From Thermodesulfobacteriota bacterium (GTDB lineage: Bacteria; Desulfobacterota; BSN033; UBA1163), in contig JASEHH010000026.1 in the NCBI GenBank assembly GCA_030017685.1, forward strand, positions 1 to 38,063: 38,063 bases of DNA, in the 5' to 3' direction. This document shows, one piece after another, positions 846-33,645 of this stretch. Numbering within the stretch: the first letter of the stretch is position 1; every line of letters starts with the position of its first letter. The notes beneath the pieces are model-generated. The model saw only the letters and a program-made list of their open reading frames with translations, searched no databases and had not been told where the DNA came from. Made by a program: the position numbers and the translations under genes.

Positions 846-887
846 TCTCCCTTTCACCTTTCATCTTCCACCTTTTAATCTGCCATC
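846..887. repeat. Degenerate 7-bp tandem tract before flgH
   Basis: Read on the plus strand the sequence falls into about six heptads such as TTCACCT, TTCATCT and TCCACCT. It overlaps the possible upstream starts of flgH. It resembles the tract at 9102-9157 in both period and wording. Confidence 0.55.
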
Positions 888-969
888 TCTCCTGACGCTT
901 TGAAAAAATGCTTCATATGGAGAGGCACAGGCCGCCAATTTTTTCACACCTTCAGGGGGCGAGTGGGGA

Positions 970-1719
970 TTAAAAATCGACCCGAACCGTATGCTCATCG
1001 AGCACTCTACCTGAGACCTCTCTTCTGCTTGAGAGGTTAACCAGTTTGATACGGTCTCCTCTCCGTCCTTCTTCTCTTACCTCCCCCACGGTAGTGATCT
1101 TGACCTGGCGACTCTCTGCCAGGAGCATGACCCGATCCCCTCTTCTGAGCAGTGGGGGTTCCTCGACGATCCCGGCCCGCAGGACCTCACCCCTGTTGAT
1201 TGCAATCATCATCCTCTTTCCCAAAACCTCTTTCATCTCACTGAGGGAGTCATGGGGGAGGAGGGAGAGACTCCGGCTCACCCACTGCACATCCTTTGCC
1301 TGAACCTCATGATGCCTTCCTAAATAATGTGCGGTCACAATCACATCCGTATAGATATCGACCCGTCCGTTCACCCTTGTTTTTCCCACCTCTCTTCCGT
1401 TCGTTCGAAAAAGGAGAAGTCCAGAAATATTCCCTCCCCGGCGGGCCTGTTCGGATAGAAGGATATCACAGGAGAGACCTCCGGAGGGAAGCCCGATCTT
1501 CTCATAACCATGGATTGCCTTGATCTCAATTCGGTATCTCTTCTCCGGGTAGATGGTTTGAAAACCGGCCTCCAGAATTTTTATGACTTCATCCAGCTCA
1601 AGGACCTTTCCTTCCCGGTTGATTTCGATGGAAAGGGAAGATTGTCCTGATATTCCGGGACCGGGAACGAGAAATGTACAAAAGGCGAGAGCGATGAAAA
1701 AACATAGGGCCTGTTTCAT
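970..1719 (-). CDS. flgA: FlgA, P-ring assembly chaperone
   Basis: FlgA is the periplasmic chaperone for assembly of the FlgI P-ring. The 249-residue product begins with a Sec signal peptide (a hydrophobic stretch to about residue 25, followed by GISGQS). The second half matches the SAF-type C-terminal module: a YTDVIVTAHYLGRHHEVQAK strand region, then RSLSLLP, VLGKRMMIAINRGEVL and RRGDRVMLLAES, ending with VNLSSRREVSGRVLDEHTV. That last stretch is the conserved N-x-S-S-x-R-x-x-x-G-x-V motif of the FlgA C terminus. It lies 11 bases downstream of flgG and about 80 bases upstream of flgH in the same operon. Confidence 0.92.
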   Translation of the reverse strand: MKQALCFFIALAFCTFLVPGPGISGQSSLSIEINREGKVLELDEVIKILEAGFQTIYPEKRYRIEIKAIHGYEKIGLPSGGLSCDILLSEQARRGGNISGLLLFRTNGREVGKTRVNGRVDIYTDVIVTAHYLGRHHEVQAKDVQWVSRSLSLLPHDSLSEMKEVLGKRMMIAINRGEVLRAGIVEEPPLLRRGDRVMLLAESRQVKITTVGEVREEGRRGDRIKLVNLSSRREVSGRVLDEHTVRVDF

Positions 1720-1730
1720 TCATCCATCTC

Positions 1731-2513
1731 CTATCTCTTCAGGTTATTGGCGACCTGGAGCATGTCATCTCCGGCCTGGATCACCTTGCTTCCGATCTCA
1801 TAGGCCCGCTGGGCCATGATCATATTGATCATCTCCTCCACCATATCGACATTCGACATCTCCAAAAATCCTTGGGAGAGCGTCCCGAACTCATCCGTCC
1901 CCGGATTCCCCTGGGCCGGGTCTCCGGACGCCTCGCTGGGAATGAACAGGTTCTGTCCGATGCTTCTCAATCCGCCGGGGTTGGGAAAGTTAAATAACTG
2001 GATCTGAACGCTTCCGAGTTCCCTGCCGTCGGAGCCCGAAGCGACCAGCTTCCCTCCTGAGTCGATCGTGATCGTCGCCGTCCTGGCGGGAACCGCAAAT
2101 TCGGGCTGGAGCCGGTTCCCGTTACTGTCACAGATATAACCATCCTTATCTAACTTGAAAGCTCCCGACCGGGTATAAACCTCTCTGCCATTGCTGGTGA
2201 GCTTTAAAAAACCCTTTCCTTCAATCGCCACATCGAGTTGATTCTTGGTATTGGCATAATCCCCCTGGAGGAAAAGTTTCTCCACGGAGACAACCTTCGA
2301 TCCCATGCCTATCTGAATTCCCGAAGGGATCTGCCCTCCTCCGGCCGTGGAGGCTCCTGCGGTCCGGATGTTCTGATACATCAGGTCCTGAAAACTGGCC
2401 CGGCTCTTCTTAAATCCATTGGTATTCACATTGGCAAGATTGTTGGCCACCACATCGATATTCGTCTGCTGACAGGCCATGCCTGTTGCCGCTGTCCAGA
2501 GTCCTCGCATCAT
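1731..2513 (-). CDS. flgG: FlgG, distal rod protein
   Basis: FlgG forms the distal rod of the flagellar basal body and is exported by the flagellar type III apparatus without a cleaved signal. The 260-residue length is canonical. The N terminus MMRGLWTAATGMACQQTNID, then VVANNLANVNTNGFKKSRASF, is the flagellar rod signature. The C terminus carries the SNVDMVEEMINMIMAQRAYE motif and ends in DDMLQVANNLKR. The middle contains the FlgG-type VAIEGKGFLKL and YTRSGAFKLDKDG segments. An AGGAGG ribosome site lies about ten bases before the first ATG. It follows flgF by 27 bases. Confidence 0.96.
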   Translation of the reverse strand: MMRGLWTAATGMACQQTNIDVVANNLANVNTNGFKKSRASFQDLMYQNIRTAGASTAGGGQIPSGIQIGMGSKVVSVEKLFLQGDYANTKNQLDVAIEGKGFLKLTSNGREVYTRSGAFKLDKDGYICDSNGNRLQPEFAVPARTATITIDSGGKLVASGSDGRELGSVQIQLFNFPNPGGLRSIGQNLFIPSEASGDPAQGNPGTDEFGTLSQGFLEMSNVDMVEEMINMIMAQRAYEIGSKVIQAGDDMLQVANNLKR

Positions 2514-2540
2514 CGTTTTTATTCCTCCTTGTTGGGATGT

Positions 2541-3248
2541 TTAAACCCTTCCGAGGTCATTGACTACCTTTCCATTCAGTTCGTCCCGGGATTGAATCAC
2601 CTTTAAACAGGATTCATAGGTCCTGAGGGCATCGATCAACTTCACCATCTCTTCGATCGAATTGACATTCGACTGTTCGAGATAACCCTGGAGAATGGAG
2701 GCCGTTTCAACCTCCTTCTCCCCCTCAGGAGCCTCTGACACGAACAGATTGTTTCCCTCTTTTCTCAACCGGGTCGGATCGGCAAAGGTGACCAGGGCGA
2801 TCCGGTCCGCCTCTCCCCCATCCAGTTTTATGGTCCCATCCTTCTCCACCACCATCTCTTTTCCGCTCAGTCTGATTTCTCCCTTTCGCCCGAGGACAGG
2901 GAAACCATCCGCATGAGTCAATCTCTGTTCCCTGTCCAATTTGAAATGGCCTGCCCGCGTATATCGAATCCCGTTGGGTGTCATTACCTTGAAAAATCCT
3001 TCTCCCTCAATGGCCAGATCAAGACCGTTTCCGGTCTTTTCAATGCTCCCCTGCTGAAAGGAGACGACGGAGATTTCCTGCTTTTCACCTCCGGAATGTT
3101 CGAGCGCTTGAGAAAAGAGGGTTGAAAAAACGGGGACATCCTTCTTGTAACCCACTGTTTGCACATTGCTTAAGTTCTGGGAAATCAGTTGAAATCGCCT
3201 CTCCTGTCGAAGCGCTCCCGAGGGGGATAGGTTAATGGATGGTCTCAT
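2541..3248 (-). CDS. flgF: FlgF, proximal rod protein
   Basis: FlgF is a rod protein of the flagellar basal body. The 235-residue product has the FlgF/FlgG architecture: an N-terminal helix (LISQNLSNVQTVGYKKDVP), the IEGEGFFKVMTPNGIRYTRA core and the C-terminal SNVNSIEEMVKLIDALRTYE helix. A longer frame could start at TTG 3254. The ATG at 3248 is preferred because AAGGAG sits eight bases upstream, whereas it would be only two bases from the TTG. It is the first gene of the flgF-flgG-flgA-flgH unit and lies just downstream of a near-perfect sigma-54 promoter. Confidence 0.93.
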   Translation of the reverse strand: MRPSINLSPSGALRQERRFQLISQNLSNVQTVGYKKDVPVFSTLFSQALEHSGGEKQEISVVSFQQGSIEKTGNGLDLAIEGEGFFKVMTPNGIRYTRAGHFKLDREQRLTHADGFPVLGRKGEIRLSGKEMVVEKDGTIKLDGGEADRIALVTFADPTRLRKEGNNLFVSEAPEGEKEVETASILQGYLEQSNVNSIEEMVKLIDALRTYESCLKVIQSRDELNGKVVNDLGRV

Positions 3249-3279
3249 GATCAATTCTCCTTATGCTGACAATGAAACC

Positions 3280-3295
3280 TGCAAAGCATGTGCCA
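3280..3295 (-). promoter_or_regulatory. Sigma-54 promoter of flgFGAH
   Basis: The minus strand reads TGGCACATGCTTTGCA, matching TGGCACG-N4-TTGCW at every fixed position except one (A for G at position 7). The predicted start near 3269 gives a 21-base leader containing the AAGGAG ribosome site of flgF. It implies control by RpoN and an NtrC-family flagellar activator that is not in the window. Confidence 0.85.
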
Positions 3296-3405
3296 ATCGC
3301 CAAACTCCCTCTATTTCCAATAAATTGAGATCCTTCAATCAACTTTTTGATGCCTCTATCAGGCAAAGAGATACCTAAAGATAAAGACCACAGGGAATTT
3401 TTTTC

Positions 3406-3711
3406 CTACCCCCTTCGGGGCTGTAAGGAAGACCATCTTTGATTCATCGAATAGACAAAGGCCAGGATCTCCGCCACGACCAGATAGGCCTCTGGAGGAA
3501 TTTCCTGGTAGAAGTCGAGTTGTGCCAGCACCTGAACCAGAGCCGGATCTTCCTGGATAGGAATGCCATTATGCCGGGCCAGTTCGATGATCTTCTGGGC
3601 GAGCAAGCCCTGACCTTTGGCCGTCACCCTCGGAGCCTGATCCCGGCCCGGAATATATTTGAGCGCCACCGCCTTTTTAATAGACCCTCTCTTCGGCTTC
3701 GACCGTCCCAT
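3406..3711 (-). CDS. Small FlhB C-domain paralogue (FhlB/YlqH type)
   Basis: The 101-residue protein resembles the cytoplasmic export-switch domain of FlhB, without the membrane domain. The segments KYIPGRDQAPRVTAKGQG, IIELARHNGIPIQEDPALVQ and EIPPEAYLVVAEILAFVYSM align by eye with the FlhB tail encoded at 11254-12321 (VVAKGSGFIAEKIIEIARN and PSSFYHAVADILAYVYRM). The NPTH autocleavage site of FlhB is absent, and the protein begins just after where it would lie. In other bacteria such stand-alone domains (Bacillus YlqH, gammaproteobacterial FhlB) can substitute for the cleaved FlhB C-domain. It follows a FliK-like gene by 33 bases, so the pair may act in export-substrate switching. Confidence 0.85.
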   Translation of the reverse strand: MGRSKPKRGSIKKAVALKYIPGRDQAPRVTAKGQGLLAQKIIELARHNGIPIQEDPALVQVLAQLDFYQEIPPEAYLVVAEILAFVYSMNQRWSSLQPRRG

Positions 3712-3744
3712 TGGATAAATCCTTTCATAGATGGAGCAATAGGA

Positions 3745-4881
3745 TCAAACGACCAGGTTCAATAATGATCTGTCATTTCCTTTCATCTCGCTCAGAAAAT
3801 TTTCAACAATCTTCTCCGGAGTCTGGGTGGAGACACGCATCTCGGACTGAAATCCAAGATGAAGAAGTCGCCTCTGAAGTTCGTTGAGCGCTCCGCTGAA
3901 GAAGGACGTCACCTCATCAGAGGAGAAAAAGAACTGGCCATAAAGGTTTTTCCCGGTCATCCTCACCTCGATGCTCATCTTTCCCCACTCCGGCAAATGG
4001 AGCAAAAAGAGCATGGACATCCCTTCGGGATCCGAACGGTCTGATCCGGATTGAGGAAGAGAGAGATGGAGATCAACGAGCTGAAGGCGTTCCTGTATCC
4101 AGAAAGGAAGGAGAAGAAAGATCTTCTCCTGAATCCCGGCAGGAGAAGAAGAATGAAGCAACTGGTAGCCTTCGATCTTGCGAAGAAGATGATGAACGCC
4201 GTCCAGGAGTTCTTCGTGCATGGAGGAACCGGGACCTGAGGTCTGGACCGCAGGCGAAGAAGTTTCGAGCTGGGCCTTCAATCTGGCCAACAATCCTTTT
4301 ACATCCCTGCCCAGCGCCGCTTCGAACCGGCCCCGGCTGCGGGTTTCGATCAGCTGTCCTAACTGATGTTCGAAAAAGAGGCCTGACCGTGTGATGATCC
4401 CCTTGATCTGTCCGGGATCGATTGCGAAGGACCGGGAAGGGGAAAAGGAACTCCACAGGCTCAGCAAACGGTCCATTGTCTCCCGTACCGCAGGAGCCAT
4501 TTCCTGCCTCCCTGTTTTCCAGAGAAGTGATAATCTTTCTGACAGGTCCCCCATGGAGGGATCGGTCATGAGAAAGGCTTTAAGCCATCTCTGGGCCTCC
4601 AGGACGCTCGTCTCTTCCGGCTGAAGAAGTTTCAGAACGATTTGAGGATAAACCGCCTTGACTTCAAAAAGTCCCTCCATTCCTCTGTTCAGCCGCATGT
4701 GGCTCTCCACGGAGAGATCATGGCCTTCCATGCGGATCACCGCATGGTGATCATCGATCGCTTCAATCACCTTTCCCCGGAGAACCTGGCCAATATGAAA
4801 AGAGGGAAAGTCCTTCCCTAAGGGGGAATCCAGGCGAATCAGATCGAATGAAGTAAGAAATGGAGATTGGATCTCTTTCAA
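3745..4881 (-). CDS. FliK-like hook-length-control-related protein
   Basis: The product has 378 residues. The N-terminal third contains a compact beta-rich stretch (IGQVLRGKVIEAIDDHHAVI, then EVKAVYPQIVLKLL). The rest is helical, and the C terminus (about 285-370) resembles the Flg_hook domain of FliK: LHLPEWGKMSIEVRMTGKNL, then FFFSSDEVTSFFSGALNELQ and LLHLGFQ. It differs from the FliK at 19037-20515 and resembles the Bacillus YlqG type, which also pairs with a small FlhB-like protein. The start is TTG, supported by AAGGGA six bases upstream. A plausible role is modulating the substrate switch; this is inferred from context and a weak motif match. Confidence 0.7.
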   Translation of the reverse strand: MKEIQSPFLTSFDLIRLDSPLGKDFPSFHIGQVLRGKVIEAIDDHHAVIRMEGHDLSVESHMRLNRGMEGLFEVKAVYPQIVLKLLQPEETSVLEAQRWLKAFLMTDPSMGDLSERLSLLWKTGRQEMAPAVRETMDRLLSLWSSFSPSRSFAIDPGQIKGIITRSGLFFEHQLGQLIETRSRGRFEAALGRDVKGLLARLKAQLETSSPAVQTSGPGSSMHEELLDGVHHLLRKIEGYQLLHSSSPAGIQEKIFLLLPFWIQERLQLVDLHLSLPQSGSDRSDPEGMSMLFLLHLPEWGKMSIEVRMTGKNLYGQFFFSSDEVTSFFSGALNELQRRLLHLGFQSEMRVSTQTPEKIVENFLSEMKGNDRSLLNLVV

Positions 4882-5005
4882 GATAATCCCTTTGAAAATG
4901 TCGAAATTAATGGAATCGTAAGAAGTCTGGAAAACCCATTATCAGTCATTCCTGCGCAAGCAGGAATCCAGTATTTTTAAGTAGTTAGAATTCTCTGGAT
5001 TCCCG

Positions 5006-5024
5006 CCTGCCTGCGGTAGGCAGG
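5006..5024. repeat. 19-bp GC-rich palindrome inside copy A
   Basis: The sequence CCTGCCTGCGGTAGGCAGG is missing at the equivalent place in copy B, so it behaves as an insertion. Related palindromes lie at 16700-16720, 31303-31323 and 34795-34813. Confidence 0.75.
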
Positions 5025-5032
5025 TTTTCACG

Positions 5033-5062
5033 CCTGCGCGCTGAAGCGCTATGGCGCGCAGG
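5033..5062. repeat. 30-bp palindrome flanked by CACG direct repeats
   Basis: The arms CCTGCGCGC and GCGCGCAGG bracket a centre around AAGCGCT. CACG occurs once at this site in copy B (as CGTG on the other strand) but flanks the insert on both sides here (5029-5032 and 5063-5066). This fits a 4-bp target duplication. Confidence 0.75.
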
Positions 5063-5108
5063 CACGGGAATGACGACTTTTTACGATTCCATCAATTCTG
5101 TGTTTGTA

Positions 5109-5600: not shown

Positions 5601-5642
5601 TTTTCTCCTCCTCATTTCCCGTGGCTGTTAGGGGATGTTATA

Positions 5643-5861: not shown

Positions 5862-5867
5862 ATGGGG

Positions 5868-6251: not shown

Positions 6252-6293
6252 CTTTCTTCTCCTTTAATATGAAATCTTCCCTGTGAGAGCCCT

Positions 6294-8034: not shown

Positions 8035-9075
8035 TCAATTCCATGTAATAGCGCTGAGCACCATATTGGCCACTCTCGGCTTCGTGGCCAGTTCGATATC
8101 CTCAGGAACGCTCTGGCCTTTGCTCAGATAGGAGAGGGGCCTTTTGAAGCGCACCAACTGGTTGAAAAGGGGAACATACTGAGTGGTCTCATCGATTTTG
8201 GTAAAGATGTAACTGGAGATGGGGAGAAGGCGGAACCGCTCGACAATCCATTCCAGATCGCTATCCTTCGTCGTTGCGCTGAGAAGGAGGTGATTCTCGA
8301 TCTTCGGATGGACGGTCAGGAAATCTCTCAATTCCTCGATCGGCTTCGTAAGGTGAGGACTTCTTCCGGCGGTATCGATGAGCAGGAGGTCCTGGTGTCT
8401 GTTTCTTTCGATGATCTGCCTGAGTTCTTCCGGATGAAAGGCCGCCTCCAGGGGCAGTCGCAGGATCTGGGCGTACTGTTTCAACTGTTCGACCGCTCCG
8501 ATGCGATAGGTATCGATCGTGATCAGGGTGATCCGGTCCGTCACCTTTAAACGGAAATGGGCGGCCAGTTTTACCAGGGTGGTCGTCTTGCCGATCCCCG
8601 TGGGTCCGATAAAGGACCATATCCTGGGCCCTTTAAAAGAGGGTTCGGTCACCTCCACGCATTCCATGAGCCTCCAGCTGAGAAGTCCCCGATAGGCCTC
8701 GGTTAAATTTTTGGCTGACGGCTCTTTTCGGAAGGCTCGGATCTCTTCGGCCAGCCCCTGGACAAACTCCGGAAATAGACCGGCGGAGTGGATCTTCCGG
8801 AGGAAGAGTTCCTCTTCCGATTCCTTCGGCCCCCTCACCTTCTCCATCCCGACAGGCCAGGCCAATGGATCCCATCCGGAGAATCCTGACGAAGATTTGG
8901 AAGGTCGATCGACCGCGGCCACCACCTCAACCATCGGAGGCGAATAAAGTCCGGGTCCTCGAAGAGCGTTCCTGATCTTCTTCGTTGAAAGGATGATCGC
9001 CTCCGAACCCATCTCCTCCTTCACTTTTCTCAATGCCTCCTGGATATCCTTTGCCACATACTGTTTGATCTGCAT
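8035..9075 (-). CDS. flhF: FlhF, SRP-type GTPase for flagellar placement
   Basis: FlhF is an SRP-family GTPase that places the flagellar basal body, most often at the pole. The 346-residue protein has the basic N-terminal domain (MQIKQYVAKDIQEALRKVKE, then GSEAIILSTKKIR) followed by the NG domain. The GTPase motifs are all visible: FIGPTGIGKTTTLVKLA (P-loop), ITIDTYRIGAVEQLKQYA, LLIDTAGRS and IFTKIDE. A GGGAG site six bases before the ATG supports the start. It is followed closely by flhG, its regulatory partner, and preceded by flhA across a 77-base gap filled by 7-bp repeats. Confidence 0.96.
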   Translation of the reverse strand: MQIKQYVAKDIQEALRKVKEEMGSEAIILSTKKIRNALRGPGLYSPPMVEVVAAVDRPSKSSSGFSGWDPLAWPVGMEKVRGPKESEEELFLRKIHSAGLFPEFVQGLAEEIRAFRKEPSAKNLTEAYRGLLSWRLMECVEVTEPSFKGPRIWSFIGPTGIGKTTTLVKLAAHFRLKVTDRITLITIDTYRIGAVEQLKQYAQILRLPLEAAFHPEELRQIIERNRHQDLLLIDTAGRSPHLTKPIEELRDFLTVHPKIENHLLLSATTKDSDLEWIVERFRLLPISSYIFTKIDETTQYVPLFNQLVRFKRPLSYLSKGQSVPEDIELATKPRVANMVLSAITWN

Positions 9076-9101: not shown

Positions 9102-9157
9102 TTTTAAATTCCAAATTCAACGTTCTACGTTCCACACTCCACCTTCCACCTTTTATG
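9102..9157. repeat. Eight degenerate 7-bp repeats between flhA and flhF
   Basis: The plus strand divides cleanly into eight heptads. Examples are TTCCAAA, TTCTACG, TTCCACA and TTCCACC; most begin TTC and carry A at position 5. The tract overlaps the last codons of flhA. No hairpin or T-run suggests a terminator. Confidence 0.7.
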
Positions 9158-11249
9158 ACATGGTCACCATCCCCATGGATTGAATCTTTGTCTGGGGAGG
9201 CAATTCGCTATGGGATAGAACCGCAACCTGCGGAAGGATGCGATCGAGCAAACGTTTCAAATGTCTCCTCAGCACAGGGGAACAGAGGATGACGGGTTGA
9301 TAATTGAGGTGCGTCATTTGATCAAGGGTCTGATGGAGGTTCATCACCATCTTCTGCGCCAGATTGGGCTCCAGGGAAAGGTTCGCTCCGTAATCCCCTT
9401 TTTGTATCCGATCTCTCAACATATCCTCCGTATTCTGATCGAGAGTGATGAGGGGCAGAATCCCTTCCGCAGTTTCATACTGTTTCACAATGGAGCGGGC
9501 CAGCCTCTGACGGACATATTCGGTCAGGATGTCAGGGTCTTTGGTGACAGGTCCATAATCAGCCAGAGTCTCCACAATGGTCAAAAAGTCCCGGATGGAG
9601 ACGCGTTCCTTCAAAAGATTTTGAAGGACCTTCTGCACCGCCCCTAAAGGAAGAAGTTGAGGCGTCAACTCTTCGACCGCCTTCGGATATTGCTGGGCCA
9701 ACCGGTCCAGTAATTTCTGGACATCCTGTCTGCCCAGGAGCTCATCCGCATGGGATCGCAGGGTTTCGGTCAGATGGGTGGTGATGATCGTTGAAATATC
9801 GACCACCGTGTATCCTGCAAACTGGGCTTCATCCTTTCTCTTCTCCGGAACCCATAAGGCCGGAAGCCCGAAGACCGGCTCCTGGGTCGGGATCCCATCC
9901 AGCGTTCTCTTCACCTCGCCGGGGCTGAGGGCCATGACATAACCCGGCATCATCTCTCCCCGCACCACTTCATTCCCTTTGATGACGACCCTGTACTCTC
10001 CCGGTTTCAACTGGAGGTTATCCCGGACCCGAAGGGGAGGCACGATAATTCCCAGTTCCGTTGCAAACTGGCGTCGGATGGAACGGATCCTCTCCAGCAG
10101 GTCCCCGTTCTGCTCTTCATCGACGATCGGGATCAAACCGTATCCCACCTCCAGTTCCAGCCGGTCCAGGCTTAAGAACGACTCCACCTGTTCCGGAGAA
10201 GGAGGTAAAGCCATCTTCTGCGCCTCTTCGGCCTGCTTTCTCTCCTTCCGTTTCTGTTCCTTAAGAATGGAGTAACCCAGAAGGCCGATGACGAGAGAGA
10301 GGCCGATAAAGGGAATATGGGGAAGGCCGGGAATCAATCCTAAAAAGAAGAGGATGCCGGCTGAAAGGCTGATGGCCTTAGGGTGAAGTCTGAACTGGTT
10401 TCCCAGTTCCTTTCCCATATTTTCCTCAGAGGCCGCCCGGCTGACGATGAGGCCTGCCGCCGTGGAGATCATTAGCGCCGGGATCTGTGAGACCAGACCG
10501 TCTCCGATCGTCAAAATGGTGAAAGTTTGAGCCGCCGAAAGAAAAGTCATCTTATATTGAATGACGCCGACGATGAACCCTCCCACGATATTGATGAGAA
10601 TGATGAGTAGCCCGGCTATCGCCTCGCCTCTGACAAACTTGCTCGCTCCGTCCATGGCCCCGTAAAAATCGGATTCCCGGGCAATCAGGGCTCTCCTCCT
10701 GCGCGCCTCCTTTTCGTCGATCATGCCGGCGTTGAGGTCCGCATCAATGCTCATCTGTTTTCCGGGCATGGCATCGAGGGTGAACCGGGCGGCCACCTCC
10801 GCAATCCGGCCGCTTCCTTTCGTGATGACGATGAAATTGATGATGATCAGAATGCTGAAGATGATGAAGCCCACGAAATAGTTTCCTCCGATGACAAAGT
10901 GGCCGAAGGATTTGATCACTTGACCGGCTGCGGCCGTCCCTTCGTTTCCGTGGAGCAGGATCAGACGGGTGGTGGCAATATTGAGGGAAAGCCTGAACAG
11001 GGTGGTCAACAGAAGGAGAGAAGGAAAGGTCGAAAATTCGAGCGGGGTCTTAATGTAGAGGGAGGTCAACAGGATGATCAGAGAAAAGGTGATGCTCACA
11101 GAAAGAAGAATATCCAGTAGAAGAGCAGGAAGGGGAAGGATCATCACTAATAGAATGGAGACGACCCCTGCAGCCAGATAGAGGTCCGCCTGATGAATTC
11201 TGCGTTCGCCGGTAGGGATGGGTTGGGAAGAGGCTGCCTTTTCGCTCAT
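9153..11249 (-). CDS. flhA: FlhA, flagellar export gate protein
   Basis: FlhA is the large membrane component and export gate of the flagellar type III apparatus. The 698-residue length is canonical. The N-terminal half has about eight membrane spans and holds the FHIPEP-family signature, with MSIDADLNAGMIDEKEARRR followed by ESDFYGAMDGASKFVRGEAI. The C-terminal half is the cytosolic domain that binds export substrates and chaperones. It starts four bases after the flhB stop, within the fliP-fliQ-fliR-flhB-flhA export block. Its stop codon falls inside a 7-bp repeat tract. Confidence 0.97.
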   Translation of the reverse strand: MSEKAASSQPIPTGERRIHQADLYLAAGVVSILLVMILPLPALLLDILLSVSITFSLIILLTSLYIKTPLEFSTFPSLLLLTTLFRLSLNIATTRLILLHGNEGTAAAGQVIKSFGHFVIGGNYFVGFIIFSILIIINFIVITKGSGRIAEVAARFTLDAMPGKQMSIDADLNAGMIDEKEARRRRALIARESDFYGAMDGASKFVRGEAIAGLLIILINIVGGFIVGVIQYKMTFLSAAQTFTILTIGDGLVSQIPALMISTAAGLIVSRAASEENMGKELGNQFRLHPKAISLSAGILFFLGLIPGLPHIPFIGLSLVIGLLGYSILKEQKRKERKQAEEAQKMALPPSPEQVESFLSLDRLELEVGYGLIPIVDEEQNGDLLERIRSIRRQFATELGIIVPPLRVRDNLQLKPGEYRVVIKGNEVVRGEMMPGYVMALSPGEVKRTLDGIPTQEPVFGLPALWVPEKRKDEAQFAGYTVVDISTIITTHLTETLRSHADELLGRQDVQKLLDRLAQQYPKAVEELTPQLLPLGAVQKVLQNLLKERVSIRDFLTIVETLADYGPVTKDPDILTEYVRQRLARSIVKQYETAEGILPLITLDQNTEDMLRDRIQKGDYGANLSLEPNLAQKMVMNLHQTLDQMTHLNYQPVILCSPVLRRHLKRLLDRILPQVAVLSHSELPPQTKIQSMGMVTMS

Positions 11250-16498: not shown

Positions 16499-16536
16499 TC
16501 CATCTCTTCCCGGAATTAAACTTCAGAGAGAAGAAT

Positions 16537-16552
16537 AGCAACGAGCGTGCCA
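16537..16552 (-). promoter_or_regulatory. Sigma-54 promoter of the fliL operon
   Basis: The minus strand reads TGGCACGCTCGTTGCT, an exact match to TGGCACG-N4-TTGCW. The predicted transcription start is near 16526, leaving a 28-base leader before fliL. It should drive the long export/switch/regulator operon. Confidence 0.92.
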
Positions 16553-16671
16553 ACTGGAAAAAATTTATAGGAGATGGCTAATCTTATGAGAGAATTGAGT
16601 TTTTTAATTTAAAGGCGGAAACAGAACAGATGGATGGCCGTCAATATTCAGGTCGTTTGTCAACGGTTTGA

Positions 16672-16734
16672 CAGAGTAGAGTTCGGAGTTTTGAGTTCGC
16701 CCGCCTGCCGGACGGGCAGGGAGTTCGGAGTCTA
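16672..16734. repeat. 7-bp tandem tract with 21-bp palindrome inserted
   Basis: Heptads GAGTTCG, GAGTTTT and GAGTTCG run up to 16699. A 21-bp palindrome (arms CCCGCCTGCC and its complement) occupies 16700-16720, after which GAGTTCG and GAGTCTA resume. The insertion is exactly three heptads long, so the 7-bp register is kept. Confidence 0.7.
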
Positions 16735-16797
16735 AATTTATCGTAACAGTTTAGCTGTTTGAAATCGTCTTGTAAAATCCCTTCCAACCTCCCTTTC

Positions 16798-16820
16798 TCC
16801 CCCCTTAAAATAAGGGGGGA
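16798..16820. repeat. C-run/G-run palindrome
   Basis: The arms TCCCCCC and GGGGGGA flank TTAAAATAA. It is a strong potential hairpin with no T-run, flanked by further G-rich sequence to 16852. Confidence 0.6.
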
Positions 16821-16872
16821 GGGGGGGTATGACAAAGGGGGGATTAGATCAGTTTTTTCAAAACGCTAAATT

Positions 16873-17008
16873 ATGATGGAATCGTAAAAAGTCGTCATTC
16901 CCGTGAAAACGGGAATCCAGAGAATTCTAACTATCTAAAAATACTGGATTCCTGCTTGCGCAGGAATGACTGATAATGGGATTTTCAGACTTTTTACGAA
17001 ACCATCAA
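16873..17008. repeat. 136-bp inverted-repeat element, copy B
   Basis: Terminal inverted repeats of 21 bases lie at 16873-16893 and 16988-17008, with the core GGAATCGTAAAAAGTC on the left and a close match on the right. Inside are two smaller hairpins: a GTCATTCCCG...CGGGAATCCAG unit and a CTGGATTCC...GGAATGAC unit. It is the uninterrupted form of copy A (4907-5095), in inverted orientation. ATTA occurs directly on both outer sides if the element is taken to start at TGATGG, a possible 4-bp target duplication. Confidence 0.85.
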
Positions 17009-17032
17009 TTATTACAATCTATCTATTTCTTC

Positions 17033-17062
17033 ACTCCAAACCCCGAACTGCGAACTCCGAAC
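17033..17062. repeat. 7-bp tandem tract at the 3' side of flgE
   Basis: Heptads ACTCCAA, ACCCCGA, ACTGCGA and ACTCCGA lead up to the flgE stop codon. They are roughly the complement of the GAGTTCG heptads at 16672-16734, so copy B is flanked by tracts in opposite orientation. Confidence 0.65.
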
Positions 17063-17064
17063 GA

Positions 17065-20885: not shown

Positions 20886-20962
20886 CAATGCAAAATGAAA
20901 AATGCAAAGTGATAAATTTTGACTGCTAACTTTTCAATTTACAATTTTCAATTTGCATTGTG
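20886..20962. repeat. Eleven degenerate 7-bp repeats between two tRNA genes
   Basis: The sequence between tRNA-Glu and tRNA-Lys divides without a gap into eleven heptads. The left half reads like AAATGAA and AAATGCA; the right half like CAATTTA, CAATTTT and CAATTTG. The two halves are partly complementary, so the whole could fold on itself. Confidence 0.75.
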
Positions 20963-24069: not shown

Positions 24070-24174
24070 CATCTTCTCCATTCCAGTTCACCCCACACGA
24101 TGTCACCAATAATGATTCCGTACTCTCTCCGAGCCGGAGGGCTCTCTGAGCCGGAGGCCGAAATCCGAAATCCA

Positions 24175-28880: not shown

Positions 28881-29489
28881 ATTTACCTCCTTTACTTTCA
28901 TAGGTTTTGAGTAAAGATTTTATTTATCCCTTAATCCTCTCTCCCATTGGTCAATTAAAGCGTTTTCTGAACGAAAAACAGGCACAGTCTCATGAAAATT
29001 TTTTGATAAATAATTTCCAGTGGTTATATTTTACGATTTAAGTCCTCCTTTCCTGTATGTCCCTCCCTACACCTTTTCAGTTGCAATAATTGGGCCCAGA
29101 CGGGCAAGTTCTCCAGCAGTCTTTACATTGTTTTCAAAGGCTCAACTCAAATTATGTTTCTTTTGCCGCCTTCTACGTAAAAAGGCGACATTTTTATTTT
29201 TCTCTCCTTAGCCAATGTTTTGTTTTCCTCACTTGTTGAAAAAATTGCGTCAGCCTGTCGCATTTTTGCCCAATATGCGACATAAATTTCTACAAACCAA
29301 TACCAAACTCACACTCACTTTCTTATAGTAATCCTCAGTCTATTCCCCTGATCGGTTCTGCGGACTTGTAGGTGCTATTCGCAAACCTTTGTCCCGCGCT
29401 TCCCTAAACATTTTTTTACATTTTTACATTTTTGTGTTGACAAGGAGTTTAAAAAGATTTAGGTTTAACTACTAATTAGAGGTACGGTT
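28881..29489. other. AT-rich stretch with no convincing gene
   Basis: About 600 bases hold no gene with a ribosome site; a 63-codon frame at 29020-29211 has none and looks accidental. A TTGACA near 29437 lies about 50 bases before the next gene and is a possible -35 element, but its -10 is weak. T-rich runs (TTTTTACATTTTTACATTTT) occur around 29410-29432. Confidence 0.5.
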
Positions 29490-29756
29490 ATGTCGGATGA
29501 ATTGAATATTGTCCTTGAAGACGTGAAGGAAAAGTTTGATACGGTGATTGAGGCTTTTAATATGGTGAAGGAAAGCCTGGATCTGCATCGTGAGGAAAAC
29601 CGTAAAGAACATGAAGAGTTCAGAATGGAAATCCTTGGGATAAAAAAAGATATCTATGAGATGAAGAGTGAGGTCAAGGAGGTTCGGCGAGACCTCAACG
29701 AACATCGAGAAAGCACAGAACTTCATAGAGGAAAGGTAAAAAAAGAGGCATCCTAA
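29490..29756 (+). CDS. Small coiled-coil protein, unknown function
   Basis: The 88-residue protein is almost entirely charged helix: LNIVLEDVKEKFDTVIEAFN, then REENRKEHEEFRMEILGIKK and EVKEVRRDLNEHRE. Heptad-type hydrophobic spacing indicates a coiled coil. There is no signal or membrane span. AGAGG seven bases upstream supports the start. Similar short coiled-coil frames occur in Deltaproteobacteria, but I know of no function. It precedes the HU gene by 86 bases, which has its own promoter. Confidence 0.65.
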   Translation: MSDELNIVLEDVKEKFDTVIEAFNMVKESLDLHREENRKEHEEFRMEILGIKKDIYEMKSEVKEVRRDLNEHRESTELHRGKVKKEAS

Positions 29757-29775
29757 AAAGAACCAAATTTTATGC

Positions 29776-29803
29776 TTGCTTTTTGAAAACTTTTCAGTAT
29801 AAT
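29776..29803 (+). promoter_or_regulatory. Sigma-70 promoter of the HU gene
   Basis: TTGCTT at 29776-29781 and a perfect TATAAT at 29798-29803 are 16 bases apart, about 40 bases before the HU ATG. Confidence 0.75.
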
Positions 29804-29842
29804 CATTCTAAAATAATATTTTCTTTCGAGGAGGGCACAGTT

Positions 29843-30145
29843 ATGGCAGGAAAGAAACCGCTTACCAAATCACAGATCGTCTCCTATGTTGCAAACAAGT
29901 TCGATTTCTCCAAGAAGACGGCTGGGGCCATCGTTGACGAGATGGCCGCCCTGGCTGTCGCAGAAACCAAGAAGGCAGGCGCCTTCACCTTCCCCGGCAT
30001 TGGCAAACTCGTCTTGGTGAAACGGAAAGCCCGTGTGGGAAGAAATCCGGCAACGGGTCAGCCGATCAACATCCCGGCAAAGACCGTGGTGAAGATGCGA
30101 GTTGCCAAGGCCTGCAAGGACGCCATCGTCCCGCCGAAGAAGTAA
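29843..30145 (+). CDS. hup: HU-family DNA-binding protein
   Basis: HU-type proteins bend and compact DNA as dimers. The 100-residue protein has the expected fold segments: TKSQIVSYVANKFDFSKKTA at the N terminus, FTFPGIGKLVLVKRKARVGR, NPATGQPINIPAKTVVKMRV and a lysine-rich tail. The RNPATGQ/INIPA arm is the DNA-binding ribbon. The ATG at 29843 is chosen because GAGGAGGG lies upstream; a longer frame from 29783 would start within the promoter. It has its own promoter and terminator, so it is probably monocistronic. Confidence 0.95.
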   Translation: MAGKKPLTKSQIVSYVANKFDFSKKTAGAIVDEMAALAVAETKKAGAFTFPGIGKLVLVKRKARVGRNPATGQPINIPAKTVVKMRVAKACKDAIVPPKK

Positions 30146-30171
30146 GACTAAACTCATCTCAAGCAAAACAG

Positions 30172-30226
30172 GGAAGCCACTTCATCACCATTCTCGGAAA
30201 TGGGAGTGGCTTCCTATCTTTTTTTC
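30172..30226 (+). terminator. Rho-independent terminator of the HU gene
   Basis: The arms GGAAGCCACT and AGTGGCTTCC form a perfect 10-bp stem, followed after TATC by a run of seven T. It reaches into the end of the convergent gene at 30214. Confidence 0.85.
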
Positions 30227-30480
30227 TCTATCTTAAGGGAGATAGCGTTGTAGTGGTCCGGGCACTCCACTTCAATTTTTTCCCTGTCCCACCAGGGGTA
30301 TTTCCCTCCGAATTGCATCACATTCAGATAGGGGAAGATGTCGTGGTAAAAGAAGCCGCAAAGCCCCCCCGAATCGTAGCAGTTTAACTCGAACTGCTGG
30401 CCCAGGGTGTGATGCGCATGGCAGGTTCCTTTGGCTCCTGTGACCGTTGCAATAAATTTAACTTCAGTTTCCTGTTCCAT
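30214..30480 (-). CDS. TIGR04076-type small protein
   Basis: The 88-residue protein has the features I associate with TIGR04076: an EVKFIATVTGAKGTCHAHHT N terminus, QQFELNCYDSGGLCGFFYHD, IFPYLNVMQFGGKYPWWD and a C-terminal ISLKIEKK strand. It has four cysteines, and the histidines near the N terminus could bind metal. Function is unknown. ATG 30480 is supported by GGAGGAG about seven bases upstream; a longer frame to 30567 overlaps fchA and is rejected. It follows fchA by 23 bases, so it is probably co-transcribed. Confidence 0.8.
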   Translation of the reverse strand: MEQETEVKFIATVTGAKGTCHAHHTLGQQFELNCYDSGGLCGFFYHDIFPYLNVMQFGGKYPWWDREKIEVECPDHYNAISLKIEKKR

Positions 30481-30503
30481 AGGATCTCCTCCGCATACTC
30501 TCT

Positions 30504-31109
30504 CTACCCAATGTGGGTAAGAGCTCCCAAAATCTCTCCCATCAAGTGATTTCTCTTCTTCGCCCAATCCGTCATCAATGAATGCATCCTTTTCAGAAAA
30601 ACCTTATCCGTCACCGGAACCAGATTAATGCCGATATTGAGCAACCCTCCGGCCAGGGCCGCATCCGCAAGAAAAGCCGCCACCCCCGTGTCACTGACCG
30701 CATTCGGATTTCCTTTCAGAATGAGAAGCCTGGAACACTCCAGAAGCTGTATGGACTGCTGACATACCAACTGGGGGGTCACGGTGGCTTTCTGATAAGC
30801 CTTCTGGATCGCTCTGATCCGGCCAAGACGGTCTCTCTCTGTTTTTTGAGGAAGGCGAAAGGCTTTGATCACCTCATTAAAAGAGTCCGCATCTTCATCA
30901 ACGGCAAGGAAAAGTCTTCTCTGAATGACCAGGGCCTTCTTTTTGATCTCCCCCATCTCCTTCTGCCATTTTTTATCCCTCTTTGAAGAGAGACCAGCCA
31001 CCATGGCAACCAGAGAGGCGGAGAGAGCCCCTGCCAGGGCAGAAACACTTCCTCCGCCTGGAGTGGGGCTGTCCGAAGCAACTTTTTCTAAGAATCGTTT
31101 CGTTTCCAT
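30504..31109 (-). CDS. fchA: FchA, formimidoyl-THF cyclodeaminase
   Basis: This enzyme converts 5-formimino-THF to 5,10-methenyl-THF and ammonia. The 201-residue protein has the family N terminus (DSPTPGGGSVSALAGALSAS, then LVAMVAGLSSKR) and the conserved segments FLAVDEDADSFNEVIKAFRL, GNPNAVSDTGVAAFLADAAL and GGLLNIGINL. AAGGAGG six bases before the ATG supports the start. In animals this activity is fused to formiminotransferase; here the two are separate neighbours (ftcD at 31377-32273). Confidence 0.93.
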   Translation of the reverse strand: METKRFLEKVASDSPTPGGGSVSALAGALSASLVAMVAGLSSKRDKKWQKEMGEIKKKALVIQRRLFLAVDEDADSFNEVIKAFRLPQKTERDRLGRIRAIQKAYQKATVTPQLVCQQSIQLLECSRLLILKGNPNAVSDTGVAAFLADAALAGGLLNIGINLVPVTDKVFLKRMHSLMTDWAKKRNHLMGEILGALTHIG

Positions 31110-31302
31110 GGCATCCTCCTTATTCGTATCATTTTAGTTCTTTGAAACGATAATTATAGAGGACATAGGTCAGGGATGCTGGAAAAGCCTTAGAGCGGAT
31201 ACCTTTAATCAAACGATATCCACGGTCAAAAGGTAAATCAACGTTTCAAGAATTTCCTTGTCACCAATGATACTCCCTCTAAAGACCGCATTCTAAGGCT
31301 TT

Positions 31303-31323
31303 GCCTGCCTGCCGGTAGGCAGG
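31303..31323. repeat. GC-rich palindrome between ftcD and fchA
   Basis: The arms GCCTGCCT and AGGCAGG surround a GCCGGT-like centre. It belongs to the same family as 5006-5024, 16700-16720 and 34795-34813. Confidence 0.65.
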
Positions 31324-31376
31324 GAAGCATTCCTGGCCTGTGGCCAACTCCGTTTCAAAGGGCTAAAGTGTTACCC

Positions 31377-32273
31377 TTATTCAAACTCTAAAATCCGTTG
31401 TTCGATGACCTGATTTGTTGAAAATTCCGGATACTTCAAATAATGCCGGACAACGCCTTCCAGAACAGCGAGAGGAACCAGTCCCACAATCTCGGATCCT
31501 TCGATTTCTATCCCTCTCTTCATTGCCTCTGCTCTGATAAACTCATAGACCTTTGGGATATTGGTCACCCAGTAATGGGTCAGATTCATCGAAACCTGAA
31601 CCATTCCCTTCTCTTTTAATTCCACCCCCATGGCCCTGACATGGGGAAACCCGCCATCCTTAAACCTCACCTTTCTGGCAATCTCTTTTGCCAGGTTGAC
31701 ATCTTCACTCCTAAGGTTGACATTGTAAGCCACCAGAGGAAACCGGGCTCCTACCACGGTGGCCCCGGACTTTGGACTGAATTCGGCTGGTCCTTCGTCA
31801 GGCTTCCATCCGGGATCTTTCAGCTTTTCAGGAAGTCCTTCATATTCCCCTTTTCGAATCGCCGGCAGTTCTCTCCTCTCCGTTCGGAGAGCCGCCTCTT
31901 CATAAAAGAAGATAGGGATCCCTCTTCTTCCCAGCTCCTTTCCAAATTCTCTTGCTATCCCTACAGCCTCCTCCATCTCGACCCCATGAATGGGAACAAA
32001 GGGAACGACATCCACTGCCCCTAAACGGGGATGTTCTCCCTTGTGCTCTCTCATATCGATGAGATCAATGGCCTTCAGGGCAAAAGATAGGGCCGCCTCT
32101 TTCACCGCCTCCGGTTCACCCACAAAAGTGAAGACACTCCGGTGGTGATCCCTATCTGAAGAGATGTTGAGAAACCTGACCTTTTTATGCTTGATGATCT
32201 CTTCGGCAATAGAAGCGATCTTATCCGGGTCTCTTCCTTCACTGATATTGGGGACACATTCTAATAGGCGCAT
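31377..32273 (-). CDS. ftcD: FtcD, glutamate formimidoyltransferase
   Basis: FtcD transfers the formimino group from N-formimidoyl-glutamate to THF, giving glutamate. The 298-residue protein has the canonical LLECVPNISEGRDPDKIASI start, LNISSDRDHHRSVFTFVGEP, and the catalytic-His region EHPRLGAVDVVPFVPIHG (His near residue 81). VSMNLTHYWVTNIPKVYEFI is in the C-terminal half. It lacks the cyclodeaminase domain, which is encoded separately by fchA. No clear Shine-Dalgarno site precedes the ATG; the upstream sequence is a 7-bp repeat tract. Confidence 0.94.
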   Translation of the reverse strand: MRLLECVPNISEGRDPDKIASIAEEIIKHKKVRFLNISSDRDHHRSVFTFVGEPEAVKEAALSFALKAIDLIDMREHKGEHPRLGAVDVVPFVPIHGVEMEEAVGIAREFGKELGRRGIPIFFYEEAALRTERRELPAIRKGEYEGLPEKLKDPGWKPDEGPAEFSPKSGATVVGARFPLVAYNVNLRSEDVNLAKEIARKVRFKDGGFPHVRAMGVELKEKGMVQVSMNLTHYWVTNIPKVYEFIRAEAMKRGIEIEGSEIVGLVPLAVLEGVVRHYLKYPEFSTNQVIEQRILEFE

Positions 32274-32283
32274 AATCTAAACC

Positions 32284-32351
32284 CAGTCATCAGTTATCAG
32301 TCATCAGTACATAACTATTTCCTACTGATCACTGGTCACTGATTACTGATC
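32284..32351. repeat. Paired 7-bp tracts between hutI and ftcD
   Basis: Four heptads of the type CAGTCAT/CAGTTAT (32284-32311) face four heptads ACTGATC/ACTGGTC (32324-32351). The two sets are near complements, so the gap could form an imperfect stem with a short loop. Confidence 0.75.
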
Positions 32352-32360
32352 ACTTCTCCC

Positions 32361-33614
32361 TTAAAATCGGTTTCTATAGACTATCCTTCCGTTTTTGATG
32401 ACGCATTCGACATGATCCACGCCGAAATGGTAAGGAAGGTATCTATAATTCGGAATATCGAGCAAGATCAGATCGGCCTTCTTCCCTGCATCAAGGCTTC
32501 CGATCTCCTTCTCTTGCCCCATGGACCTGGCCGCATGGAGGGTGGTGGCCTGGATCACTTCTTTAGGGGTCATTCTGAAGAAGAGACAGCCCATGGTCAT
32601 CATCAGGGGAAGGGATTCGGTCATTGAGGAGCCCGGGTTCAAATCGGTGGAGAGGGAAACAACGACTCCCTTCTCGATCATCTCCCTTGCGGGTGGATAT
32701 TTCTTCATTGAAAGAAAGAAACTAACTCCCGGCAACAGGACCGCTATGACCCCTTTCTCGGCCATTCGTTCAATCCCTTTCTGGCTCACATATTCGAGAT
32801 GATCCGCAGAATAGGCCCCGACCTCAGCCGCCAGTTCTGCTCCGCCACCCGGACTCAGTTGGTCCGCATGGATTTTTGGCTTGAGGCCGTATCGCTTTCC
32901 TGTCTCGAGGATTTCTCTTGACTCTTCGAGATGAAAAGCCTTCTCCTCACAGAAGACATCGCAGAACTCTGCCAGCCCTTCCCCGGCAACTTCTGGAATC
33001 ATCTCTTGGGTGAGAAGATCCATGTATCTTCTTCTCTCATTTTTAAACTCTTTTGGAAGGGTATGAGCTCCCAGGAAGGTCGGGACAATGTCCACAGGAT
33101 GATTTTCCTGTAATGCCTTCATCACCCGGAGAATTTTTAATTCATCTTTAAGCGAAAGCCCGTAACCGCTTTTGGCCTCAATGGTCGTAACACCCTTTGA
33201 GAGGAGTCGATCAAGTCTTCTCTTTCCTGAAGAGAGGAGTTCATCAAATGAAGCCTTTCTTGTCGCTTCAACGGTGGATAGGATTCCGCCTCCCCTCTCG
33301 GCAATCTCCAGATAAGTGCGACCTTCAATTCTCTGTTCAAATTCATTCTCTCTTGAACCGGCAAAGATGAGATGAGTATGCGAATCGATGAGGCCCGGCA
33401 TCACGACCTTTCCTCTCGCATCGATCACCTGCCCTTCCGGACCCAAAACAAAATCTCCCGGTAATTCATCCGTCTTTCCGATCCAGAAGACCCTGCCCTC
33501 TTTAACGGCGACGGTGCCGTTCTGTATGATTCCCAGTCCTGATTCATCTTTAAAGGAGGAAGAAAGGGTGAGGAGTTCTTTGGCATTTTTGATGATGAGA
33601 TCAATTTCAGTCAT
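32361..33614 (-). CDS. hutI: HutI, imidazolonepropionase
   Basis: HutI hydrolyses 4-imidazolone-5-propanoate to N-formimidoyl-L-glutamate. The 417-residue amidohydrolase has metal-binding and substrate motifs in order: LIDSHTHLIFAGSRENEFEQ, RIEGRTYLEIAERGGGI, PKIHADQLSPGGGAELAAEV, YSADHLEYVSQKGIERMAEK and STDLNPGSSMTESLPLMMTM. The ATG lies inside a tandem 7-bp tract and no proper ribosome site is visible. It lies between hisC and ftcD. Confidence 0.95.
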   Translation of the reverse strand: MTEIDLIIKNAKELLTLSSSFKDESGLGIIQNGTVAVKEGRVFWIGKTDELPGDFVLGPEGQVIDARGKVVMPGLIDSHTHLIFAGSRENEFEQRIEGRTYLEIAERGGGILSTVEATRKASFDELLSSGKRRLDRLLSKGVTTIEAKSGYGLSLKDELKILRVMKALQENHPVDIVPTFLGAHTLPKEFKNERRRYMDLLTQEMIPEVAGEGLAEFCDVFCEEKAFHLEESREILETGKRYGLKPKIHADQLSPGGGAELAAEVGAYSADHLEYVSQKGIERMAEKGVIAVLLPGVSFFLSMKKYPPAREMIEKGVVVSLSTDLNPGSSMTESLPLMMTMGCLFFRMTPKEVIQATTLHAARSMGQEKEIGSLDAGKKADLILLDIPNYRYLPYHFGVDHVECVIKNGRIVYRNRF

Positions 33615-33645
33615 TCGTCATTCGTCTCTCGTCGCTCGTCTATCG
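33611..33645. repeat. Five 7-bp tandem repeats at the hutI start
   Basis: The plus strand reads TCATTCG twice, then TCTCTCG, TCGCTCG and TCTATCG. On the coding strand the repeat unit is GACGANN, and the hutI ATG lies in the final unit. Confidence 0.75.

Follow-up and report, generated by a model that had tools for sequence, protein, structure and literature searches.

Introduction

Why should short tandem arrays that share a unit length of about seven nucleotides, while their words differ, recur between the genes of one bacterium? The question is raised by a 38,063-bp stretch of DNA (hereafter the window) from a Thermodesulfobacteriota bacterium, contig JASEHH010000026.1 of assembly GCA_030017685.1, which is contig C187 of a draft genome of 3.96 Mb in 326 contigs (genome label G000). 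An initial annotation of the window, made from the sequence alone, had listed at least seven intergenic sites with degenerate heptads and had taken them to suggest a common process (slippage, templated synthesis or period-locked selection) rather than one dispersing element. The genome was compared with those of nine congeners, one genome per species, among which G006 is the nearest relative (89–97% identity over the aligned parts), and with 148 genomes of the phylum. The reading that is tentatively favoured, with a confidence that falls somewhat short of even, is that slippage of about 7 nt and arm-to-arm template switching act together where the DNA tolerates them, above all directly downstream of stop codons.

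Strength and Extent of the Period-7 Signal

Each site was scored for period 7 against 2000 dinucleotide shuffles of the site with 20 bp on either side, and against 500 shuffles in which any lag from 5 to 12 was admitted. The lag-7 identity was 0.82 at 33611–33645, 0.78 at 17033–17062 and 0.69 at 9102–9157, and no shuffle in either set reached these scores. It was 0.67 at 20886–20962 (0/2000 and 2/500 shuffles), 0.64 at 32284–32351 (1/2000 and 0/500) and 0.60 at 846–887 (0/2000 and 1/500). Six of the seven sites thus stood well above their local shuffles; the seventh, 16672–16734 (identity 0.43, 28/2000 and 43/500), was weak alone because it is a single arm of a hairpin, the partner arm of which is 17033–17062. 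What had been listed as two sites is one structure. The results of Tandem Repeats Finder (TRF) agreed with the tract calls.

On the genome scale, 181 intergenic stretches (43,555 bases) within 258 kb of the genome were scanned and compared with 20 shuffles, the genes being called with a simple codon-usage caller, the start positions of which may be off. The intergenic DNA contained 38 period-7 tracts, as compared with a shuffle mean of 0.15 (maximum 1), and only two tracts were found in 219,867 bases of coding DNA. Period 8 was enriched too (11 tracts vs. 0.25 in shuffles), and period 6 gave three tracts (vs. 0.1); periods 14 and 16, with 34 and 9 tracts, are harmonics, and periods 4, 5, 9–13 and 15 gave from zero to two tracts each. 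The outcome by which the initial annotation would have been refuted, namely a lack of enrichment over shuffles or in the rest of the genome, was looked for and did not occur. Since octads are enriched, the rule is "about 7" rather than strictly 7: the claim that the 7-base period is kept from site to site held for most tracts, whereas the period is not locked, and a unit of 6 occurs in two hairpins. The latter, with GGTTAA/GGCTAA units, were recognised by eye in two gaps, L106:3677–3760 and L110:13234–13291.

A draft assembly of 326 contigs might be suspected of artefacts; with a signal so far above shuffles, tracts present in other genomes and in named assemblies, and a reversed-word control (see below) that matched only one of 148 genomes, the probability that chance or misassembly produced the tracts is negligible.

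Position Relative to Genes

Heptad or octad tracts were found in 91 of 356 co-directional gaps, 7 of 64 divergent gaps and 9 of 55 convergent gaps. Of the 89 heptad tracts in co-directional gaps, 34 begin no more than 15 bp from the upstream stop codon, where random placement would give about 20; 18 end no more than 15 bp from the downstream start codon, where about 20 are likewise expected and there is thus no excess. On the sense strand, the tracts near stop codons are more often G-rich than C-rich (25 vs. 6, with 3 equal); the corresponding numbers are 28 vs. 21 (6 equal) for tracts elsewhere and 164 vs. 119 for gaps with no tract.

Hairpin Arms and Repeat Words

The initial annotation had noticed tracts in complementary orientation at some sites. 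These are hairpin arms, and they are frequent: an inverted partner within 250 bp was found for 33 of 94 heptad tracts (19/470 in a swapped-flank control) and for 26 of 44 octad tracts (17/220 in the control). In 21 of 53 heptad hairpins, selected as having a gap-free block of at least 28 and a period signal in both arms, the arms agreed unit by unit above shuffled units, with a mean z of 1.9 ± 0.34. The match between arms was 0.776 in register and 0.649 when shifted by one or two units, and the unit-to-unit match within an arm was 0.664. In addition, the variable letter of CXAA was the same in both arms of 18 of 24 hairpins, where 6.2 would be expected, an agreement partly built in by the selection of inverted repeats.

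Hairpins at the 3′ ends of genes could be RNA structures under selection, acting as terminators or as processing or stability elements. The excess directly after stop codons, a hairpin between tRNA genes and the persistence of hairpins with changed words speak for such a role, as do the folds of the DNA in the tRNA gap of five species (z −4.3, −1.6, −4.1, −0.9 and −2.6), although two of these five are not significant. A selected RNA stem should favour G-U among its imperfect pairs. The mismatches between arms, read on the sense strand, showed no such preference (G-T was counted 76 times and A-C 73 times among 45 heptad hairpins, and 22 and 20 times, respectively, among 16 octad hairpins), which argues against selection on RNA structure; non-heptad hairpins showed none either (49 vs. 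60), so that the mismatch test is without a positive control. Moreover, 61 of the 94 heptad tracts had no inverted partner at the threshold used, and the only Rfam models matched at gathering score in the window were its three tRNAs. Selection for RNA hairpins is accordingly considered quite improbable as the origin of the tracts.

The units are mostly degenerate, and 64 consensus words were found among 97 tracts of the genus. The word can shift stepwise within one array, as at L100:2967–3074, and some arrays outside the window hold three exact units. After one gene, at L100:2842–3280, heptad and octad arrays follow one another over about 480 bp, with the words AGTTCGG, AGGAATCC, AAGAGGG, CGAGGGA and TTTGGAT. 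The statement that the word differs from site to site was thus borne out; it has to be qualified in that the words are not free, distant families reusing some of them (see below).

The Same Gaps in Sister Species

Orthologous gaps were compared when they measured at least 40 bp in both species, each species pair being counted once (254 pairs from 910 ortholog rows). The relative carries a heptad tract in 20 of the 52 cases in which the first species does, and in 14 of the 202 in which it does not. These 20 gap pairs represent nine gaps in regions fetched around tracts of the window and, being neither independent nor random, are indicative only.

The words are alike in some orthologous gaps and different in others. 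Between the genes for tRNA-Lys and tRNA-Glu the arms are of the ATTGAAA type in G000 and G007, of the AATAACC type in G002, of the ATTCGGA type in G003 and of the ATTGCGG type in G004; no tract is present in this gap in G005, where the gap measures −1 bp, or in G008 (21 bp). In the gap at 32274–32360, aligned by eye, the units run from AGTNATC (G000, G002) through ARTNRYC (G006) to AATNNNC (G003), and G009 has a different element. At L112:3446–3572 an octad hairpin in G000 corresponds to a heptad hairpin in G006 (L181), and the ortholog pair L110:11271–11316 and L174 differs by one unit fewer and one extra base. Different words in the same gaps of sister species point to a mutational process that keeps rewriting the tracts.

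Not all congeners carry tracts. No period-7 tract was found in 74 kb of G005 (two contigs) or in 100 kb of G008 (one contig), as compared with 54 tracts in 378 kb of G000 at the same threshold. Over the whole genomes the words TTTCGGA and AGTTCGG gave two matches each in G005, and four and none, respectively, in G008; G005 formally counts as a carrier of AGTTCGG by its two matches, despite its tract-free 74 kb. These two species, which also have few Y1 transposase genes (five and none), form a natural contrast pair within the genus.

Dispersal and Shared Vocabulary

The tracts might alternatively be short non-autonomous mobile hairpins, resembling miniature inverted-repeat transposable elements (MITEs) or repetitive extragenic palindromes (REPs), that are moved in trans, perhaps by Y1 transposases of the REP-associated tyrosine transposase (RAYT) type, the different words being subfamilies that insert into the same permissive gaps. 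One family is indeed multi-copy. A heptad hairpin of about 200 bp with CGAA words at L112:10170–10380, AAATCCGAAGCACGAAATCC..., is dispersed in the genus, with dozens of places among the matches listed in the four congeners searched; in the genus DNA sampled it has 16 places, of which 12 were judged by eye to be heptad hairpins and four match only its internal GC-rich palindrome. A copy of this family at L106:19005–19370 has another hairpin family nested inside it. The occurrence of another hairpin type in the same gap of G006 (the pair L112:3446–3572 and L181) would suit mobility as well, and the number of Y1_Tnp genes tracks that of TTTCGGA words across ten genomes (Spearman 0.74, P 0.014). 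Y1_Tnp is also present in 16 of the 17 genomes, among 148 of the phylum, that carry AGTTCGG, as compared with 85 of the 131 others (P 0.013).

For most of the window the evidence is opposite. When eight tract-bearing segments were searched against about 1 Mb of genus DNA (E ≤ 1e-4), five of them (846, 9102, 16672, 17033 and 33611) matched no other place; as queries they are short, and diverged copies would escape. Two other places were found for the tRNA gap, four for the 24082–24174 gap and three for the 32284 gap, and these are partly orthologs. The preference of the initial annotation for a common process over one dispersing element therefore applies to most of the window, with the reservation that elsewhere in the genome one heptad hairpin family has dispersed. 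The flanks of 20 Y1 genes (11 of 13 matches in G000 and nine from six congeners, 260 bp on each side where present) display their own terminal signatures and no heptad hairpin by eye. Genome G037 has the AGTTCGG word (eight matches) and no Y1_Tnp, and the gap comparisons revealed neither a target-site duplication nor a clean empty site, duplications not having been scanned systematically. On this balance, mobile hairpins are an unlikely general explanation, and the Y1 transposases were rejected as the makers of the tracts: their counts correlate with the words, but their flanks are devoid of recognisable heptad hairpins, and words occur in G037 where they are absent. They are retained only within the mobile-hairpin alternative.

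The Y1 (RAYT-like) loci themselves (L218, L220–L225, L196 and others) comprise several subfamilies within one genome, and several of the genes lie between complementary ends, for example GGGGTCAGGCTTG or GGGGACGTAGGTT.

A carrier of AGTTCGG was defined as a genome with at least one match to the 18-mer AGTTCGGAGTTCGGAGTT at no more than one mismatch. The 17 carriers among the 148 phylum genomes belong to seven families and have up to 152 matches (G067); the reversed control matched one genome (G102, eight matches). In samples of seven distant genomes, 11 of 35 heptad tracts had a word identical to one in the genus list and 16 more were one substitution off, whereas 5% of letter-shuffled words matched the list exactly. 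These genomes were picked for carrying AGTTCGG, and two of the 20 stretches sampled for holding it; with AGTTCGG left out, 9 of 33 tracts still matched, as compared with the same 5%. The words that recur in unrelated families include AGTTCGG, ATTTCGG, ATTGCGG, CCAAATT and GTTTAGA. Two of the seven distant genomes, G151 and G140, showed no period-7 tract in 60 and 20 kb, respectively. The shared vocabulary may reflect transfer, ancestry or a shared enzyme preference.

Two further candidates for a maker were rejected. Reverse transcriptase (PF00078) was present in 10 of the 17 carriers and 47 of the 131 others (P 0.11). Loss of the hairpin nuclease SbcD was considered as well: TIGR00619 scored above its cut-off in 28 of the 148 genomes and, among the 17 carriers, only in G067. 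Such loss explains nothing within the genus, because the tract-poor G005 and G008 are without the nuclease, like G000 and G007, and G067, which has it, shows the most AGTTCGG matches.

Slippage and Template Switching as a Proposed Origin

The elements may be described as intergenic quasi-palindromes, the arms of which consist of short units in tandem, about 7 nt long, units of 8 and, occasionally, 6 nt occurring as well. In the favoured reading, strand slippage would first duplicate a stretch of about 7 nt where the DNA tolerates it, often at a gene's 3′ end. Further slippage would homogenise the units within an arm while changes build up. Fold-back template switching during replication would then copy one arm onto the other, making and repairing the hairpin, and selection would purge such arrays from coding and promoter DNA; some of the resulting hairpins may later disperse as small repeat families. 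We infer slippage and template switching as events, and their order, from the patterns described above. Paired arms, together with word replacement in both arms, would be explained by the two processes acting jointly. Among the three causes offered initially, slippage fits best, yet alone it leaves the mirrored arms unexplained; nothing was found in favour of templated synthesis from an external template, and period-locked selection is weakly supported.

Precedents exist for the second process. Template switching is known to perfect imperfect inverted repeats in E. coli, as stated in excerpts of PMC7202029, and has been put forward as a general means by which hairpins arise and are kept (passages of PMC8794818). 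In yeast, RNA-DNA hybrids are reported to start such events in highly transcribed DNA (summary passages of PMC3820800); speculatively, the G-rich sense strand of the tracts near stop codons would fit initiation by such hybrids.

The invariant columns of the tracts bear both on slippage and on a different possibility, namely that the units are spaced binding sites of a protein, either an RNA binder of the CspB, S1 or CsrA kind or a DNA binder, with the spacing and part of the word under selection. MacGregor has proposed such an RNA binder for the TAACTGA repeats, and one CspB protein per heptamer is discussed in the same text (sections of PMC4679880). Among tracts of four or more units that also reached a set minimum of mismatches (58 heptad, 27 octad), the longest run of invariant columns was 2.90 in heptads vs. 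2.33 in a slippage simulation (difference 0.57 ± 0.16) and 4.11 vs. 3.15 in octads (difference 0.96 ± 0.23). Such slightly longer contiguous runs would suit protein contacts, as would the G-rich sense strand near stops and the words shared across families. The column profile, determined by the same selection for 63 heptad, 29 octad and 12 hexad tracts, lies near the neutral simulation, from which that of heptads hardly differs. Furthermore, the words vary within a site, from one site to another and, in the same gap, from one sister species to the next, and two congeners have no tracts in 74 and 100 kb. Protein-guided spacing thus seems unlikely. A fixed unit grammar of four conserved and three free positions, good by eye, was rejected as being near the slippage simulation, and so was a logic of reading frame and stop codons (7 and 8 not being multiples of 3), which would not exclude 5, 10 and 11.

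Several observations, the excess length of the invariant runs among them, weigh against slippage with template switching. The mirrored-unit test gave a modest result, and its alignments are the best inverted repeats, which inflates the in-register value of 0.776. Slippage predicts no special unit length, and units of 4–6 and 9–13 are nearly absent from the intergenic DNA. The differences between units comprise 208 transitions and 273 transversions, unlike ordinary point mutation, and identical words in distant families are unexpected from blind drift. The 28 ortholog pairs with a tract in G000 only gave no clean case of a tract growing from an empty site: the median gap lengths are 93 bp (G000) and 87 bp (ortholog), and the G000 gap is the longer in 16 of the 28. 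Finally, GACGATA, the first unit of the tract at 33610–33647, coincides with the 3′ end of the aminotransferase gene and occurs in G005 with no array, where this gene end is a possible seed unit; it is absent from the other eight of the nine orthologs shown, including that of the nearest relative G006, and the seed may therefore be chance.

A bolder reading invokes an enzyme activity with a step of about 7 nt, dedicated or idiosyncratic, that would keep writing mirrored arms into 3′ intergenic gaps. Each species would then overwrite the same gap in both arms at once, and the limited vocabulary would be set by the preferences of the enzyme and not by ancestry. Such an activity is regarded as distinctly unlikely, and slippage together with template switching is retained as the working explanation.

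Sites in the Window

The window contains a flagellar cluster, three tRNA genes and metabolic genes, with Pfam assignments of FlgE, an amidohydrolase, an aminotransferase and others. The labels flgH, flhA and flhF are our presumption from the protein sequences; the closest FlhA among the 80 named loci listed was that of Deltaproteobacteria bacterium SM23_61 (73% identity).

The tract at 846–887 (minus strand; TRF row 850–875, and the sequence) reads AAGGTGG AAGATGA AAGGTGA in the sense direction and sits at the presumed ribosome-binding region of gene 127–864 (putative flgH). That at 9102–9157 (minus strand), in the gap between genes 9153–11249 (putative flhA) and 8035–9075 (putative flhF), begins at the upstream stop codon and changes gradually from AAGGTGG words to AATTTGG. 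In G002 the corresponding gap opens with a different, shorter heptad-like run, and no heptads were seen by eye in that of G008 or SM23_61.

The large hairpin, on the minus strand, has an upstream arm of TTCGGAG words at 17033–17062, which starts 2 bp past the stop codon of flgE (FlgE by Pfam), and a downstream arm of CTCCGAA words at 16672–16734, broken by the palindrome CCCGCCTGCCGGACGGGCAGG. Its loop (16735–17032, no strand assigned) is enlarged by other repeats, so that about 300 bp separate the arms in G000, while the two arms in the orthologous gap of G002 (264 bp) are about 20 nt apart and form a compact hairpin. Among these repeats, the element at about 16870–17012 resembles a REP or a bacterial interspersed mosaic element (BIME); it is a hairpin of the GTCATTCCTGCG...CGGGAATGAC type inserted between the AGTTCGG hairpin arms, and has 30 other places in about 1 Mb of genus DNA. 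A plasmid origin of the 16499–17064 gap was considered, and no match was found.

The hairpin in the tRNA-Lys/tRNA-Glu gap (20886–20962, minus strand) has arms of ATTGNAA and AATGNAA; its predicted DNA fold (−19.5 kcal/mol, z −4.34) consists of blocks of about six pairs with single mismatches every 7 nt or so. The downstream arm at 32284–32308 (ACTGATG and ACTGATA units, a TAACTGA-like word) and the upstream arm at 32324–32362 (AGTGATC and AGTAATC units), both on the minus strand, form the next hairpin, the upstream arm overlapping the amidohydrolase stop codon by 2 bp. The GACGANN tract at 33610–33647 (minus strand) bridges the aminotransferase stop codon and the amidohydrolase start codon: it takes in the final codons of the former gene and reaches into the start codon of the latter, so that this tract is not confined to a gap.

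Two tracts were missing from the initial list. A short TTTCGGA tract at 24150–24173 (minus strand) lies 1 bp after a stop codon, and heptads of the same type occupy this gap in G006 and G002, and by eye also in G001. Adjoining it, at 24125–24157, are two copies of a 17-bp unit, CTCTCCGAGCCGGAGGG, of which G006 apparently has only one. The other tract is an octad, TTTTTACA, at 29413–29433 (plus strand).

Relation to Known Repeats

The short tandemly repeated repetitive sequences (STRR) of cyanobacteria have several heptad words per genome, as found here. REP and BIME elements are intergenic imperfect palindromes in many copies, and REP palindromes are not built of heptads. Compared with REP/BIME elements and their RAYT genes, the CGAA-word family is multi-copy in the same manner and five of the eight window segments are not; Y1_Tnp genes exist in the genome, but no heptad hairpin was seen by eye at the flanks examined.

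Heptanucleotides are over-represented in prokaryotes (Mrazek et al. 2007, as cited in PMC4679880 and PMC4692102), which was related to slippage over the contact or footprint of the polymerase, an idea of the same authors quoted in both papers. A table in PMC4060949 places unit 7 above units 6 and 8 (7n3 vs. 6n3 and 8n3) in seven of eight classes. These prokaryotic heptameric simple sequence repeats (SSRs) resemble the tracts in the intergenic excess of 7-nt tandem units (38 vs. 0.15 here). The surveys, as far as the cited excerpts go, count exact repeats, whereas here the units are degenerate, exact repetition of at least three units is not the rule, and many tracts are hairpin arms.

The TAACTGA repeats of marine Beggiatoaceae, cyanobacteria and Bacteroidetes (MacGregor 2015, PMC4679880) are likewise intergenic heptads, and the 32284 tract uses a relative of their word (TGACTGATAACTGA). 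As described in sections of that paper, they consist of one exact word, mostly just before start codons, with related words rarely repeated. Unlike them, the present tracts have a variable word, are in excess after stop codons and not before start codons (18/89 vs. about 20), and have arms that pair. Nor are exact TAACTGA repeats abundant: the exact 14-mer occurs at one place of G000 (two overlapping matches), and six more matches appear at one mismatch, the reversed control giving three.

The GGGAATC and GGGGA(C/T)T heptads of Xanthomonas and Nostoc occupy the gaps of the same genes, vary in length and sequence between close species and include some inverted pairs, according to parts of PMC4692102, which also mention three heptanucleotides of Calothrix. 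As presented there, they are of one G-rich motif type per organism and were studied as formers of G-quadruplexes; here the words are many and most are without G runs. Passages of PMC2700814 describe in Geobacter metallireducens the elements GGACCGG and MTYCTGA, with four or five tandem heptads and one class drawn as fold-back sites; both families are fixed, one also occurs within genes, and they were interpreted as regulatory sites. The view that no role is established in this type of bacterium is fair as regards role, although arrays had thus already been reported.

Intergenic heptad repeats are therefore known, and what looks new is the degenerate, multi-word hairpin arm. No description of such heptad or octad arms, or of sister species with differing words in one and the same gap, was found among the papers listed in full-text searches of open-licence literature on repeats and template switching.

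Conclusions

In this genus, congeners with dozens of arrays stand beside congeners with few or none, which makes it a natural comparison. With this contrast, the occurrence of different words in the same gaps and a vocabulary spread patchily over the phylum, it should be feasible to tell apart slippage, template switching, protein-guided spacing and mobility as causes of these arrays.

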